From NCBI GenBank assembly GCA_900317555.1, contig ONHF01000014.1:1-64000 (forward strand): a stretch of DNA of 64,000 bases. The letters run 5' to 3'. Position numbers and translations under genes: made by a program. The first letter of the stretch is position 1, and each line of letters begins with the position of its first letter. This DNA comes from an uncultured Lachnospiraceae bacterium. Its GTDB lineage: Bacteria > Bacillota > Clostridia > Lachnospirales > Lachnospiraceae. The notes beneath the pieces were generated by a model. It saw only the letters and a program-made list of their open reading frames with translations. It was not told where the DNA came from and ran no database searches. Positions 45,229-52,799 of the stretch are shown here, piece after piece.

Positions 45229-45648
45229 TCAGTTCTTATAATCTTTGCCTTTGAACTTAAGTCTCGACAAGGCTCTTGCCATTGCCGCCTGCGTCATGCG
45301 GTATTCGCTGATGCTCTGTCTCTGGCGCAACCGCTCTTTCGCGCGTTCCAGTGCTTCGTTCGCTCTGCGCGCGTCCAGCTCCGCCTCGGTTTCGCAGGTA
45401 TCCACAAGTACCTGGCAGCGGTTGTTCGCAAACACCATGGTCCCGAAACCCGCAACGACGTGAATTTTTGTTCCGTCGTCCTTTTCAATGTCGAGTTCTC
45501 CAGGCTCCAGCGCCATAATGACTCTCTGATGATGCGCGAGAAACTGAATCTGGCCGTCCAGCGTCTGCACGGTCAGGCACTTTGCAAAGCCCTTGTAAAA
45601 CTCCTTGTCCGTGGCAAGTACTCTAAGATAGAAATGTGCTGTATCCAT
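45229..45648 (-). CDS. atpC: ATP synthase epsilon subunit
   Basis: A 139-aa central-stalk subunit that couples and regulates rotation. The N-terminal beta sandwich (about 5-88; DGQIQFLAHHQRVIMAL, GFGTMVFANNRCQVL) is followed by a two-helix C-terminal domain (about 92-135; LDARRANEALERAKERL). Last gene of the operon, 36 bp after atpD. Slightly divergent from textbook epsilon but of normal length. Confidence 0.93.
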   Translation of the reverse strand: MDTAHFYLRVLATDKEFYKGFAKCLTVQTLDGQIQFLAHHQRVIMALEPGELDIEKDDGTKIHVVAGFGTMVFANNRCQVLVDTCETEAELDARRANEALERAKERLRQRQSISEYRMTQAAMARALSRLKFKGKDYKN

Positions 45649-45684: not shown

Positions 45685-48013
<2,329 letters not shown>

Positions 48014-48045: not shown

Positions 48046-49860
48046 TCAAGCTTTGGGTGCTTCCTTCTTGTCCCACTTTTCGCTCCGGAACGCGTCCGCG
48101 GCCTTTAAAATTTCTTTGGCTGTGGAGTCTTCCAGCCGCCCGCTGGTTGTGAGCTCGCTCACAATGTTCGGATACGATGTGTGGAAATAATCGAGCATCT
48201 CGCTCTGATATTCCTTGACCTCTTTGACTGGCAGGTCGATCATCCTGCGGCTCTCCGCAACGACAAGCGTAATGACCTGATCCGCCATCGAAAGCGGATG
48301 CTCGAGCGGCTGCTTGAGCAGTTCCATCAGAACACGTCCCTGCGCGAGCTGCTGCTGTGTTGCCTCGTCCAGATCAGAAGAGAACTGTGTGAACACTTCC
48401 ATTTCTCTGTACTGTGCAAGGTCAATACGGAGCGAACCTGCCGCCTTCTTCATGGCTTTGGTCTGTGCGGCGCCGCCGACACGGGATACCGAAAGTCCGA
48501 CGTTGACCGCGGGGCGCTGTCCTTCGAAAAACAGATCCGACTCCAGGAAAATCTGACCGTCCGTAATGGAAATGACGTTGGTCGGAATGTATGCGGATAC
48601 ATCGCCATCCTGCGTCTCGATGATCGGGAGCGCCGTAATGGAGCCGCCGCCGAGCGCATCGGACAGTCTCGAGGAACGCTCGAGAAGTCTGGAATGCAGG
48701 TAGAAAACATCACCGGGATACGCTTCACGTCCCGGGCTTCTGCCGAGCAGCAGAGAAATCGCGCGGTAAGCAACCGCGTGCTTGGAAAGGTCATCATAGA
48801 CGACAAGAACGTCGCGGCCGCGCAGCATGAAATACTCCGCGAGGGACGTTGCCGCATACGGCGCGATATACTGCAGAGGCGCCGGATCAGCCGCTGTCGA
48901 AGCGACGACGATCGAATAGTCCAGAGCGCCATGCTCTTTGAGCGTATTCACAAACGTCGCGATCGTCGATGCCTTCTGGCCGATTGCCGTGTAAATGCAG
49001 ATAGTGTTTTTACCTTTCTGGTTCAGGATCGTGTCCAGAGCGATTGATGTTTTGCCGGTCTGGCGGTCGCCGATGATCAGCTCACGCTGTCCGCGGCCGA
49101 TCGGGAACATCGAGTCGATTGCGAGGATACCGGTCTCCATGGGCGTCGTAACAGGTTTTCTGTCGATAATGCCCGGCGCCGGCTCTTCAATCGGACGGTA
49201 CTCGTCGGAAACAATCGGAGATCCGCCGTCAATCGGGGATCCGAGCGCGTCAATGACGCGGCCGAGGAATCCGTCGCCGACAGGAATGCCGGCGCGCTTG
49301 CCGGTGCCGACGACGCGGCTGCCTTCGCCGATCGTGCCTTCCTGATCGAACAGGATCGCGCCGATGCCGTCATCGTTGATATCCTGCACCATGCCCTTGA
49401 CACCGTTGTCAAACAGAACGATTTCGCCGTACTGTACATGGGAAAGGCCGTCGATCGTGACGATGCCGTCGCCGGCGGTTTCAACTGTGCCGACCTCCGA
49501 CTTCTCCGCCTGAATATGGAAACGGTCGATCGCGGTCTTGAGCATCGTCATGATGCTGCCGGAGCCGTCGCCCGAGCCGTCATCTCTGTAAGCTTTTTCC
49601 CTTGCGGCATCGATACGGTTTTCGAACTGTCTCTCGCGGCCGCGGGTACTCCAGTCATACTCGTCGCTTCCTACGTCCAGAATAAAGCCGCCGTGAACCT
49701 TGGGTTCGAGAACGACCTCGAGTTCGACATCTTCCTTCCTGACACTGTATTTCGCGGCAAGAAATTCGATAAATTTTGTCTTTTGCTCATCGCTGGGTTT
49801 CGTGACGCAGCGCAGAACCGCGTGCAGCTTCTGCACGTTTACATTCGGATTATTGCTCAT
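48046..49860 (-). CDS. atpA: ATP synthase delta(C-terminal domain)-alpha fusion
   Basis: A 604-aa protein, about 100 residues longer than normal alpha. Residues about 12-85 match the C-terminal domain of subunit delta: KPSDEQKTKFIEFLAAKYSV, LEPKVHGGFILDVG and YDWSTRGRERQFENRI correspond to the delta elements s.eq...l...l, id.s..GG..i..g and iDgSvrgrLe. A flexible Asp/Gly/Ser linker (about 92-101) leads into a complete alpha subunit starting near SIMTMLKTAI, with EVGTVETAGDGIV and P-loop GDRQTGKTS. No delta gene exists between atpF and atpA, and the delta N-terminal bundle is missing. The start overlaps the atpF end by 11 bp. Confidence 0.93.
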   Translation of the reverse strand: MSNNPNVNVQKLHAVLRCVTKPSDEQKTKFIEFLAAKYSVRKEDVELEVVLEPKVHGGFILDVGSDEYDWSTRGRERQFENRIDAAREKAYRDDGSGDGSGSIMTMLKTAIDRFHIQAEKSEVGTVETAGDGIVTIDGLSHVQYGEIVLFDNGVKGMVQDINDDGIGAILFDQEGTIGEGSRVVGTGKRAGIPVGDGFLGRVIDALGSPIDGGSPIVSDEYRPIEEPAPGIIDRKPVTTPMETGILAIDSMFPIGRGQRELIIGDRQTGKTSIALDTILNQKGKNTICIYTAIGQKASTIATFVNTLKEHGALDYSIVVASTAADPAPLQYIAPYAATSLAEYFMLRGRDVLVVYDDLSKHAVAYRAISLLLGRSPGREAYPGDVFYLHSRLLERSSRLSDALGGGSITALPIIETQDGDVSAYIPTNVISITDGQIFLESDLFFEGQRPAVNVGLSVSRVGGAAQTKAMKKAAGSLRIDLAQYREMEVFTQFSSDLDEATQQQLAQGRVLMELLKQPLEHPLSMADQVITLVVAESRRMIDLPVKEVKEYQSEMLDYFHTSYPNIVSELTTSGRLEDSTAKEILKAADAFRSEKWDKKEAPKA

Positions 49861-50326
49861 TCTGTGATACTTCCTTCAGAAAGTCGTCATACAGTTTCTC
49901 ATCGCTCTCGGATTCCGCGATCTTGGCGGCAGCTTCCTTTACCATGCCGGTAATCTCATCCTCTGCCTTGCGCTTCTCCTGATCGGCCACAGCCTTTGCC
50001 TTGTCTCTGGCCTCGCTGATGATCTGCTCTGATTTGGACTGTGCCTCGCTGACAATTCTGTCGTACTCGGCTGCGCCCTTTACTTTTGCGTCCGCAACTG
50101 CCTTCTCTTCGTTCTCGGCAATCTTAGATGCAGAAGCAGCCAGCTGCGCTTTCAGATCGTCTGCGTCCTTATTGGTCTTTTCGGCTGCCTGATAGCTGGC
50201 TTCAATCTCGTCATTGCGCTTTTTCAGAATTTCCCTGACCGGCTTGAAGAGGAACTTCTTGACGAGGGCAAACAGAATCAGCACATTGATGATTTCCCAG
50301 ACGATATTCAGATCAATACGTAACAT
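49850..50326 (-). CDS. atpF: ATP synthase b subunit
   Basis: A 158-aa peripheral-stalk subunit: one N-terminal membrane helix (about 5-25, NIVWEIINVLILFALVKKFL) and a long charged coiled coil to the C-terminus. Its C-terminal end (KLYDDFLKEV) would bind the delta C-terminal domain, here supplied by the fused alpha. Its gene directly precedes the fusion with an 11-bp overlap. Confidence 0.96.
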   Translation of the reverse strand: MLRIDLNIVWEIINVLILFALVKKFLFKPVREILKKRNDEIEASYQAAEKTNKDADDLKAQLAASASKIAENEEKAVADAKVKGAAEYDRIVSEAQSKSEQIISEARDKAKAVADQEKRKAEDEITGMVKEAAAKIAESESDEKLYDDFLKEVSQNEQ

Positions 50327-50389: not shown

Positions 50390-50602
50390 TTACAGCATGA
50401 AGATGATCAGAATACCGATGACGAAACCGTAAATAGCAGTTGCCTCTGCAAGTGCGCAGCCAAGCAGAAGGTTTCTCATGATCTTGGAATCTGCCTCAGG
50501 CTGTCTTGCGATCGCGTCTGTAGCGTGTGCTGTTGCAATACCGATACCAAGACCTGCGCCGATGCAAGCCAGTGCCGCAATACCTGCTCCTAATGCTACC
50601 AT
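50390..50602 (-). CDS. atpE: ATP synthase c subunit (proton type predicted)
   Basis: A 70-aa two-helix ring subunit. Helix 1 is Gly-rich ([17 protein letters not shown]), the polar loop is ARQPE, and helix 2 carries the ion-binding Glu in [12 protein letters not shown]. In Na+-binding c rings a Gln in helix 1 and a Ser after the Glu complete the site; here these are Ile and Ala, so H+ coupling is predicted. Two adjacent inter-gene gaps (63 and 271 bp) are the only long ones in the operon. Confidence 0.97.
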
Positions 50603-50673: not shown

Positions 50674-50876
50674 GCTGCTGGTTCTTCCGTGCCGAAGGCA
50701 CAGAAGAACCATAAGCTCCCGCTGCCGGCTCCGCTGAAAGCGGGCCGTAAGCTCCTGCTGCTGGTTCTTCCGTGCCGAAGGCACTGAAGAGCCATAAGCT
50801 CCCGCTGCCGGCCTTGCCGAAGGCAGGCCGTAGGCTCCTGCTGCCGGCTCCGCTGAAAGCGGATCAGCGGGCCTTA
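50674..50876 (-). repeat. Tandem array of five hairpins between atpB and atpE
   Basis: Five units: 50674-50720, 50721-50756, 50757-50803, 50804-50839 and 50840-50876. Units 1+2 and 3+4 form two 83-bp near-identical tandem repeats; unit 5 repeats unit 2 and touches the atpB stop. Each is a stem with a GAA loop on the plus strand (TTC on the transcript), for example GTGCC-TTC-GGCAC extended by GGTTCTTC/GAAGAACC. Spacers carry GGAGC or GGGAGC in the mRNA. No T run follows, so these are not ordinary terminators; they may set relative expression of subunits a and c. Confidence 0.8.
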
Positions 50877-51611
50877 CGCCTGCACAGCCTTCTTCTTCGC
50901 CTTCCTGACCTTCTTCGGTCTGGGCGCAGCCGGCTCCGCAGCCTCCGCAATGAACAAAGATGTAAGGAAAACAAATACATACGCCTGAATCAGACCGTCA
51001 AAGAAGTCAAAATACAGGCTGAACACCACCGGTACGCCTACCGGCACGAGCATCTTGATCAGCTCCATGATAACGAACGCACCGAGTACGTTTCCGAAAA
51101 GACGCATGCACAGCGAAAGCGGACGGATGAATACCTCGAGAATGTTGATCGGAGTTACAATTGCGATCGGCTCGGTGAAACTGCGCAGCCATCCCTTGCC
51201 GCCCTTCGCGCGGATGCCGGCCGCTTCGATGAGAATGATGCTCATCAAAGACAAAGCAATCGTAACATTCATATCCTTCGTCGGCGGTTTCACGCCGAAT
51301 ACGCCGATGATATTCGCAAAGCCGATGAACAGCAGTACAGTCGACATGTACTCTCTGTACTGCAAAGCATGTTCGCCCAGCATATCCCCGGTAAAACTGT
51401 CCAGCCAGTTTACGATGAACTCCGCAGCGAGCTGTCTCTTGCCCGGATTTCTGACTTTCATGTTTCTTGTCAGCCAGATACACAGGAATGTGATGATCGC
51501 CATGACCACCCATGTGATCACAACCGATTCCGCGATCTGGATCTTTCCGCCGATCGTAAAGGCGGTTTCAACAGTCAGTTCTTCCACCAGTTTATGAGCA
51601 AGCGCTTTCAT
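50874..51611 (-). CDS. atpB: ATP synthase a subunit
   Basis: A 245-aa membrane stator subunit. The essential Arg is in PLSLCMRLFGNVLGAF; the last helices are FDGLIQAYVFVFLTSLFIAEA. After the last helix comes an unusual tail of about 20 residues, Pro/Ala then Lys/Arg-rich (PRPKKVRKAKKKAVQA). First gene of the operon; no atpI upstream. Confidence 0.96.
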   Translation of the reverse strand: MKALAHKLVEELTVETAFTIGGKIQIAESVVITWVVMAIITFLCIWLTRNMKVRNPGKRQLAAEFIVNWLDSFTGDMLGEHALQYREYMSTVLLFIGFANIIGVFGVKPPTKDMNVTIALSLMSIILIEAAGIRAKGGKGWLRSFTEPIAIVTPINILEVFIRPLSLCMRLFGNVLGAFVIMELIKMLVPVGVPVVFSLYFDFFDGLIQAYVFVFLTSLFIAEAAEPAAPRPKKVRKAKKKAVQA

Positions 51612-51755: not shown

Positions 51756-51881
51756 GCATTTCTTGTGATTTTACGCACCACATATTAGATTTTACTCTTA
51801 TTAAAAGGAAACGCAAGGGAACAGGCCTGCCCCTGATTAAAGCAAATGCCGGGAAGCAGGTCTGCCCCATGGAGCTGTCTC

Positions 51882-52799
51882 ATGGTAAACTACGAATACT
51901 ACCGCATTTTTTATTATGTGGCAAAATGTCTGAACATGACGAGGGCAGCTGAAATGATCGGAAGCTCGCAGCCCAACGTCACGAGGAGCATGAACAATCT
52001 GGAAGCGCAGCTTGGCTGCAAACTCTTTGAGCGCACGCATCACGGCATTTCGCTTACACCCGACGGGAAAATGCTGTATGACCATGTTTCCATCGCGGTC
52101 GACCAGCTGCAGATGGCCGAAGAATACATCAGTGCCGAGAAAGACCTCGACACCGGTCAAATCAGGATCGGGGTGACGGAGATCGCAATGAATGTTTTTC
52201 TGCTGGATCAGTTAAAGCTCTTCCAGACAAAATATCCCCGCATCGTCGTTCACCTTTACAATTACACTTCCCCGAAAGCGGCGGAAGCGCTGGTGCGCGG
52301 GCTGGTCGATTTTGCCGTGATCACAACACCGGTCAACCTTCCCGAAACGCTGCATGTCGAATATCTCGATACATTTTCGGAAATTCTGGTCGGCGGGCCC
52401 AAGTACAAATCTCTGTCCGCGAAAAAGCATTCTCTCCGCGAACTTCACCGCTACCCGTTTATTTCTCTTAGTGTCGGGACCGGCAGCCGGGAATTTCTGA
52501 TTCAGCATTTCCTGAATCAGGGGCAGACTTTCGATCCTGCTGTGGAGGCCGCAACAACCGGCCAGATTCAATCGATGGTGCGTTTTGATCTTGGGCTTGG
52601 CTTTGTCCCGGCTTCATACATTACCGAGCGCGGCCTGATCCGCGAACAGATTTATGAAATTCCTCTTGAAGATCCGCTGCCGCCGAGGAAGATCTGCCTC
52701 GTCACGCGTGATGACGAAAGCAATCAGCGGCAGGCGCCGCTGACCTTTGTCAGGCAGCTGCATGCAGCGGCGCGGATCGGACAGGCCGGGAGAGAGTAA
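51882..52799 (+). CDS. LysR-type transcriptional regulator
   Basis: A 305-aa regulator with an N-terminal winged helix-turn-helix (about 1-65; NYEYYRIFYYVAKCLNMTRAA, SQPNVTRSMNNLEAQLG, LFERTHHGISLT) and a periplasmic-binding-like effector domain (about 90-295). ATG 51882 has GGAG. It is divergent from the atp operon and shares the palindrome at 51727-51755, so it may regulate itself and possibly atp, or only the YoaK-like gene that follows 108 bp downstream. The effector is unknown. Confidence 0.93.
   Translation: MVNYEYYRIFYYVAKCLNMTRAAEMIGSSQPNVTRSMNNLEAQLGCKLFERTHHGISLTPDGKMLYDHVSIAVDQLQMAEEYISAEKDLDTGQIRIGVTEIAMNVFLLDQLKLFQTKYPRIVVHLYNYTSPKAAEALVRGLVDFAVITTPVNLPETLHVEYLDTFSEILVGGPKYKSLSAKKHSLRELHRYPFISLSVGTGSREFLIQHFLNQGQTFDPAVEAATTGQIQSMVRFDLGLGFVPASYITERGLIREQIYEIPLEDPLPPRKICLVTRDDESNQRQAPLTFVRQLHAAARIGQAGRE

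Follow-up and report, generated by a model that had tools for sequence, protein, structure and literature searches.

The window analyzed here is a stretch of 64,000 nucleotides from the genome of an uncultured Lachnospiraceae bacterium. A single operon in this window encodes seven subunits of an F-type ATP synthase (alpha, beta, gamma, epsilon, a, b and c), all of them above the Pfam cut-offs. The genes lie on the minus strand in the order a, c, b, delta-alpha, gamma, beta, epsilon: atpB for subunit a (50874..51611; PF00119, NF004486), atpE for a c subunit of 70 aa (50390..50602; PF00137), atpF for a b subunit of 158 aa (49850..50326; PF00430), the delta-alpha fusion gene (48046–49860), atpG for gamma (47060..48013; PF00231), atpD for beta (45685..47073; TIGR01039), and atpC for an epsilon subunit in which both domains are present (45229..45648; PF02823, PF00401). 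The overlap between atpF and the fusion gene, pointed out in the initial annotation of this DNA, was confirmed and amounts to 11 bases at the fusion start. An ORF at 51846-52799, which precedes the operon and is encoded on the other strand, looks by eye like a LysR-like regulator. An Rfam search of the window yielded no match. Assignment of the enzyme to the N-ATPases (alternate F1F0) was rejected as the TIGR03324 score, 595.6 bits, is below the cut-off of 750.5; the gene order, a-c-b-alpha-gamma-beta-epsilon if the fusion is counted as alpha, is also at odds with the N-ATPase order given in PMC5709465.

The fusion gene is an ORF of 604 aa in the ORF list of the window, and was first described as an alpha subunit with about 100 extra N-terminal residues corresponding to the C-terminal domain (CTD) of delta/OSCP. 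Pfam and NCBIfam matches, AlphaFold2 and Foldseek all agree with that description. Positions 103-170 of the 172 positions of the Pfam OSCP profile (PF00213) align with fusion residues 12-81 (24.8 bits, cut-off 22.3), and the OSCP search proposed as a check, when performed with residues 1-102 alone, gives 28.2 bits. NCBIfam atpA (TIGR00962) covers residues 102-593 with 719 bits, and the F1 alpha subunit is intact. Three segments can thus be drawn along the minus strand: the delta/OSCP CTD (residues 1-92; 49585..49860), an Asp/Gly/Ser linker of sequence DDGSGDGSGS, as anticipated (residues 93-102; 49555..49584), and alpha proper, from residue 103 to the end with the stop codon included (48046..49554), which begins with an N-terminal amphipathic helix seen in relatives. 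The N-terminal domain (NTD) of delta is missing from the fusion, as originally claimed: the PF00213 match is limited to the C-terminal positions, and an NTD profile detected nothing in the window locus. With the CTD fused in frame to alpha and the NTD absent, the notion that a covalent link stands in for the contact between NTD and alpha holds as well.

AlphaFold2 prediction of residues 1-118 (mean pLDDT 72) yields a block with pLDDT 84-95 over residues 11-70, which is predicted with confidence to be a small fold, while the linker region (92-109) falls below 50. A model of the full-length protein was set aside, as its mean pLDDT was 69 and long stretches between residues 250 and 466 were below 50. 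In a Foldseek search at E ≤ 0.001, 25 of 25 PDB chains belong to ATP synthase entries, judging by entry titles rather than by molecule names; chain lengths (82-243 residues, and 336-445 in mycobacteria) fit delta/OSCP and b-delta subunits. Among relatives, dN/dS of the delta part ranges from 0.012 to 0.28 in the eight of nine pairs for which it could be computed, none of which includes the window itself. Such values indicate that the N-terminal extension is a translated domain under selection. A mis-called start codon was therefore rejected, since relatives conserve the CTD and keep it under purifying selection.

The earlier statement that atpH is missing is correct for the operon in the window, where no separate two-domain delta/OSCP subunit is found and only the CTD, on alpha, is present. 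It is incorrect for the genome as a whole. This assembly, 87% complete in 32 contigs, has a total of two F-type alpha genes, and its contig C10 encodes a full delta (153 bits) inside a complete second operon with the order a-c-b-delta-alpha-gamma-beta-epsilon. A genome-wide search with an NTD profile retrieved the C10 delta with 34 bits and, besides it, a 12-bit partial match (E 0.38). Contamination as the origin of the second operon was rejected because two other genomes of the same genus (G103 and G114) also hold both operons.

The c subunits of the two operons differ around the carboxylate. The C10 c subunit has Glu at position 32 and the motif ETTGIY, while the window c subunit has Ile at position 32 and the motif EATAIY. 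We take the Na+ site of subunit c to consist of Gln or Glu at position 32 plus Ser or Thr after the carboxylate, as in Ilyobacter tartaricus. At these two places the C10 protein has Glu and Thr, and the window protein has Ile and Ala. Gln or Glu at position 32 was found in 37 of 37 classic c subunits (8 with Glu identified by script, and 29 with Gln read by eye as the anchor is absent in them) versus 1 of 103 scripted c subunits from the other operon type. By c motif, the classic, C10-type enzyme is thus predicted to be sodium-type and the window enzyme proton-type.

Side-by-side operation of a sodium and a proton ATP synthase has been reported in Pseudobutyrivibrio ruminis (review PMC11187502). 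This species has a delta-alpha operon that falls in the clade of the window protein and has the same c motif, plus a separate full-length delta. It differs from the window in that the whole delta, NTD included, is kept on its 671-aa alpha. We infer from sequence that the delta-alpha operon of P. ruminis probably encodes the reported H+ enzyme.

The suspicion that delta-alpha might be a trait of the lineage was well founded: the fusion recurs in 23 of 100 sampled Lachnospiraceae genomes. Nine of them carry the whole delta on alpha, 13 carry only the CTD (a contig end truncates one of these, and another scores below the family cut-off), and one, G068, carries b, CTD and alpha in a single frame. 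The family thus offers a series that comprises a separate delta, the full delta-alpha fusion, CTD-alpha and, in a single case, b-CTD-alpha. In the genus of the window, an OSCP match is present in 24 of 31 genomes, and eight of those have CTD-alpha; for seven of the eight, the assignment is based on the OSCP match and the frame length, with the locus unread. In five of the eight, CTD-alpha is both the sole OSCP match and the sole alpha.

Whether the fusion enzyme requires a separate delta can be judged from genomes in which the fusion stands alone. A CTD-bearing alpha is the sole alpha and the sole OSCP match in ten surveyed genomes (G043, G079, G062, G071, G068, G105, G111, G115, G125 and G127). 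Among 15 named genomes, all five CTD-alpha isolates (Shuttleworthella satelles DSM 14600, [Clostridium] aminophilum DSM 10710 and KH1P1, [Eubacterium] cellulosolvens LD2006, and Lachnospiraceae bacterium AC3007) each have a single alpha and lack any further OSCP match; two of their five OSCP matches fall slightly short of the family cut-off. The eight isolates that carry the whole delta on alpha all have in addition a separate full-length delta. Because their match coordinates are identical, S. satelles and AC3007 were equated with G062 and G079 and counted once, and the ten surveyed genomes plus [Eubacterium] cellulosolvens LD2006 and the two [Clostridium] aminophilum strains make 13 distinct fusion-only genomes. 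These relatives, in which a CTD-bearing alpha is the only detected alpha and OSCP match, show that the fusion enzyme needs no separate delta.

The CTD-alpha arrangement extends beyond the family. By frame length, it was detected in five genomes of a second family of the order (f6) among 116, and also in other classes of the phylum. The loci read, one from family f6 (L181) and eight from other classes (L169-L176), are CTD-alpha operons; in L174 our own CTD profile found nothing where Pfam OSCP gave 45 bits. Loci L169-L176 do not join the clade that holds the window protein, which has a UFBoot value of 100.

When we examined the length of the protein ahead of the Walker motif, discrete classes were found: around 170 residues in plain alpha, 245-308 with the CTD, 336-366 with the whole delta, and 438 in a special class of two cases, the b-CTD-alpha fusion and an alpha with two NTDs. 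None of the 52 CTD-alpha loci, 49 of them distinct, scored above 6 bits with an NTD profile. The same profile gave at least 72 bits in all 38 full fusions and in 14 of 15 loci classed as having a separate delta, figures that are partly circular as these full fusions and separate deltas also served to build the profile. The exception among the 15 is L058, a b-CTD fusion without NTD. Five pairs of loci represent the same organism twice, and one member of each pair was removed for trees and for junction and spacing counts (leaving 49 CTD-only and 36 full fusions); duplicates are still counted in the NTD profile scoring (52 CTD-alpha and 38 full).

A second NTD profile was used for genome-wide searches. 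Nothing was found at E ≤ 5 in nine of the ten surveyed fusion-only genomes, and the tenth (G115) gave a 13-bit partial match with an E value of 0.19. Among the controls, those from the clade of the window scored 54-127 bits, and the classic deltas of five genomes scored 19-34 bits; the classic delta of G025 was missed, so a very divergent NTD could escape this search.

In trees built from alpha and beta, the CTD-only state is scattered among whole-delta relatives. FastTree analysis of 107 loci gives 16 losses of the NTD (14 or 11 with weak nodes collapsed), while IQ-TREE analysis of 74 loci, obtained by removing by hand 33 near-identical loci of the 107, gives 15 (12, 10 or 8 after collapsing nodes with UFBoot below 80, 90 or 95). 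The NTD has been lost 8-16 times, depending on the tree and on the treatment of weak nodes, a count that takes loss as irreversible and comes from alpha and beta only, with 12 of the 107 loci devoid of a usable beta and several UFBoot values below 50. The clearest nested loss is that of L086 and L149, which lie inside L109 and L110 (UFBoot 99-100). The sister of the window's clade consists of Oribacterium sinus, which keeps the NTD, and another CTD-only species (UFBoot 100). Furthermore, the remaining NTDs track alpha-beta distances (Mantel r 0.805, versus 0.256 as the best of 1000 permutations; 50 loci), which argues for loss rather than repeated gain of the NTD.

In the open-licence literature, we found this architecture only in a study by Ueno et al. 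(2025; PMC12229609); earlier Lachnospiraceae reports may exist elsewhere. These authors argue that the delta NTD, located on the threefold axis, restricts the enzyme to one stalk. Deletion of the NTD in the Bacillus PS3 enzyme and fusion of the CTD to alpha permitted up to three stalks and three a subunits. By gel, the construct contained 2.2 times as much a and 1.8 times as much b as the wild type. Its H+/ATP ratio was 5.8 instead of 3.0, and the equilibrium driving force was 68 mV versus 133 mV, meaning that the construct makes ATP at a weaker ion gradient. Cryo-EM particles with 0, 1, 2 and 3 stalks accounted for 15, 51, 26 and 8%, respectively. The three docking sites of the construct are described as almost identical and all fillable. 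In ordinary enzymes, according to the same authors, a single alpha N-helix makes contact with the delta CTD. Ueno et al. also name natural fusions without an NTD, for which they predict a multi-stalk structure: Acidaminococcus fermentans, UniProt G4Q3K6 and A0A1I2C5T3.

The engineered chain (PDB 9jc1_I) aligns collinearly and in one stretch with residues 24-592 of the window protein, and ranks fourth by score, behind three alpha-only chains. Both proteins consist of a delta CTD, a short linker and alpha, with the NTD deleted and no separate delta. However, the PS3 enzyme is a designed one, bears an epsilon truncation and was studied in vitro, while the window enzyme is natural, has both epsilon domains and coexists with a second ATP synthase. 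The Acidaminococcus fermentans protein, according to the same source, likewise has the CTD on alpha and lacks the NTD. The b-delta protein of mycobacteria, proposed in the initial annotation as the best-known comparison, is also a stator fusion involving delta, and Foldseek matches include the mycobacterial chains of 336-445 residues mentioned above; in it, however, delta is joined to b and not to alpha (PMC5709465). The engineered and Acidaminococcus fusions are closer. The window enzyme and its relatives are thus natural counterparts of the engineered enzyme.

The expectation of an altered stator was right in our judgment. That each F1 would have only one peripheral stalk was, however, an assumption, as the engineered homologue takes up to three, and the same might be true here. 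Our reading is as follows. Every alpha would carry at its N-terminus its own b-docking domain, the delta CTD. With the NTD gone from the threefold axis, F1 would offer three equivalent docking sites; more than one b2 stalk would then assemble, each with its own a subunit, and more protons would be moved per ATP. Such an enzyme could work when the proton-motive force is low, or in reverse move a larger number of protons for each ATP hydrolyzed.

Three observations are consistent with three equivalent sites. The alpha N-helix persists, by eye, in the CTD-only class. CTD and alpha core are evenly spaced, with 49-59 residues between them in 48 of 49 CTD-only loci (the remaining one was not parsed). 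Finally, b, delta CTD and alpha form one uninterrupted 778-aa frame in L052:6129-8492, a locus that has no separate b. A chain of this kind ties b to alpha in a 1:1 ratio, and would put three b subunits on each F1 if it stays whole. Among the matches listed for 397 genomes, a single genome showed an uninterrupted b-CTD-alpha frame, which might reflect a mistake in assembly or base calling. The multiple stalks and raised H+/ATP of the engineered homologue, together with the collinearity of 9jc1_I, also favor the multi-stalk reading. On these grounds, we lean towards the view that the window operon encodes a natural proton-type ATP synthase that assembles more than one stalk. A fuller version stands evenly poised in our opinion: the enzyme would have as many as three copies each of the b2 stalk and of subunit a, and use up to three times the usual number of protons per ATP; it would have evolved many times in one family by delta-alpha fusion followed by loss of the NTD; and several named isolates would have it as their only detected F-ATP synthase, and the window organism as the proton partner of a sodium enzyme.

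The main rival is an enzyme with a single stalk and spare domains, in which one CTD binds the sole b2 stalk, two are idle, and the fusion merely replaces the non-covalent bond between delta and alpha. We consider this doubtful, albeit a contender to be taken seriously. Subunits b and a are encoded by single genes in an ordinary operon order, and 51% of the engineered particles had one stalk, which weakens the multi-stalk reading. Full delta-alpha fusions, with an NTD on each chain, are moreover common (38 loci) and evidently tolerated; the presence of three delta copies on F1 is therefore no proof of several stalks. A single stalk is harder to reconcile with the near identity of the three engineered sites, all of which can be filled according to Ueno et al., and with the b-CTD-alpha chain of one genome, which would place three b subunits on each F1.

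Another conceivable explanation is a mixture of alpha chains: if translation also started inside the gene (Met104 or Met106), or if proteolysis took place, one fused and two plain alphas could build an enzyme much like the ordinary one. Two ATG codons are indeed found at the window junction. This explanation seems, however, improbable, as an ATG occurs within the 40-codon junction in 25 of 49 CTD-only loci and 12 of 36 full fusions, and the spacing between CTD and core is even. A 5-base Shine-Dalgarno sequence precedes the junction start in 4 of 49 CTD-only loci and 3 of 36 full fusions, a weak test given that the genes' own starts have one in 14 of 90 cases. Internal starts as a conserved device were rejected on these junction ATG and Shine-Dalgarno counts, the latter weakened by the 14/90 control. 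It might also be imagined that the fusion enzyme borrows in trans the full delta of the C10 operon and thereby retains an NTD. The genome does contain a full delta gene, and G103 and G114 of the genus likewise contain both. Against this view, 13 distinct genomes have one CTD-bearing alpha and no other OSCP match; borrowing of a separate delta is thus unlikely as a general rule, and even for the window organism we regard it as very improbable.

If natural enzymes do carry two or three stalks, as the multi-stalk reading holds, the ion-to-ATP ratio, a basic constant of bioenergetics, would be set by stalk number as well as by c-ring size, and evolution would have changed gear through stalk number many times. 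In the gut-type bacterium studied here, a putative stalk clamp is built into the alpha subunit of a second ATP synthase, which the genome encodes in addition to an ordinary one. A comparison series is at hand, made of fusion-only isolates, whole-delta relatives such as Oribacterium sinus and Pseudobutyrivibrio ruminis, and species with a separate delta. A warning for annotation is that an atpH that seems to be "missing" may be concealed within a fusion gene.

The survey uncovered other unusual loci. In Shuttleworthella satelles (L051:7310-7325), the stop codon of b is directly followed by the same-frame start of CTD-alpha, and the locus is one stop codon (an in-frame TAA) short of a b-CTD-alpha fusion. 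A long match with a stop inside, detected in Shuttleworthella, is read as the end of this same-frame b gene; the NTD profile finds nothing in that genome. L097, from an uncultured Clostridia MAG, encodes a 782-aa NTD-NTD-CTD-alpha protein, the first NTD recognized by profile and the second by eye. In L058 (5593-10117), the delta CTD is on b rather than on alpha, and gamma and beta are fused in a 766-aa ORF; a similar beta ORF of 796 aa is present in L101, where no separate gamma is listed. A second b-like protein of 319 aa (L047:4483-5442) has two terminal repeats that appeared CTD-like by eye, and was discarded with a CTD profile score of -2.4 bits. The operons of L048, L050, L053 and L057 have divergent a subunits, and their c subunits, 125-131 aa in length, begin with a long extension that resembles a signal sequence and show the motif ET(A/V)(I/V)IY at the carboxylate. 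Lastly, stand-alone proteins of 111-160 aa with a delta-CTD-like domain are encoded in L178 (5072-6099 and 9513-9848) and L179, with no other atp gene recognized in the fetched stretches; in L178, these small proteins lie near genes that resemble, by eye, SpoIIE, TilS, MoxR and VWA genes.
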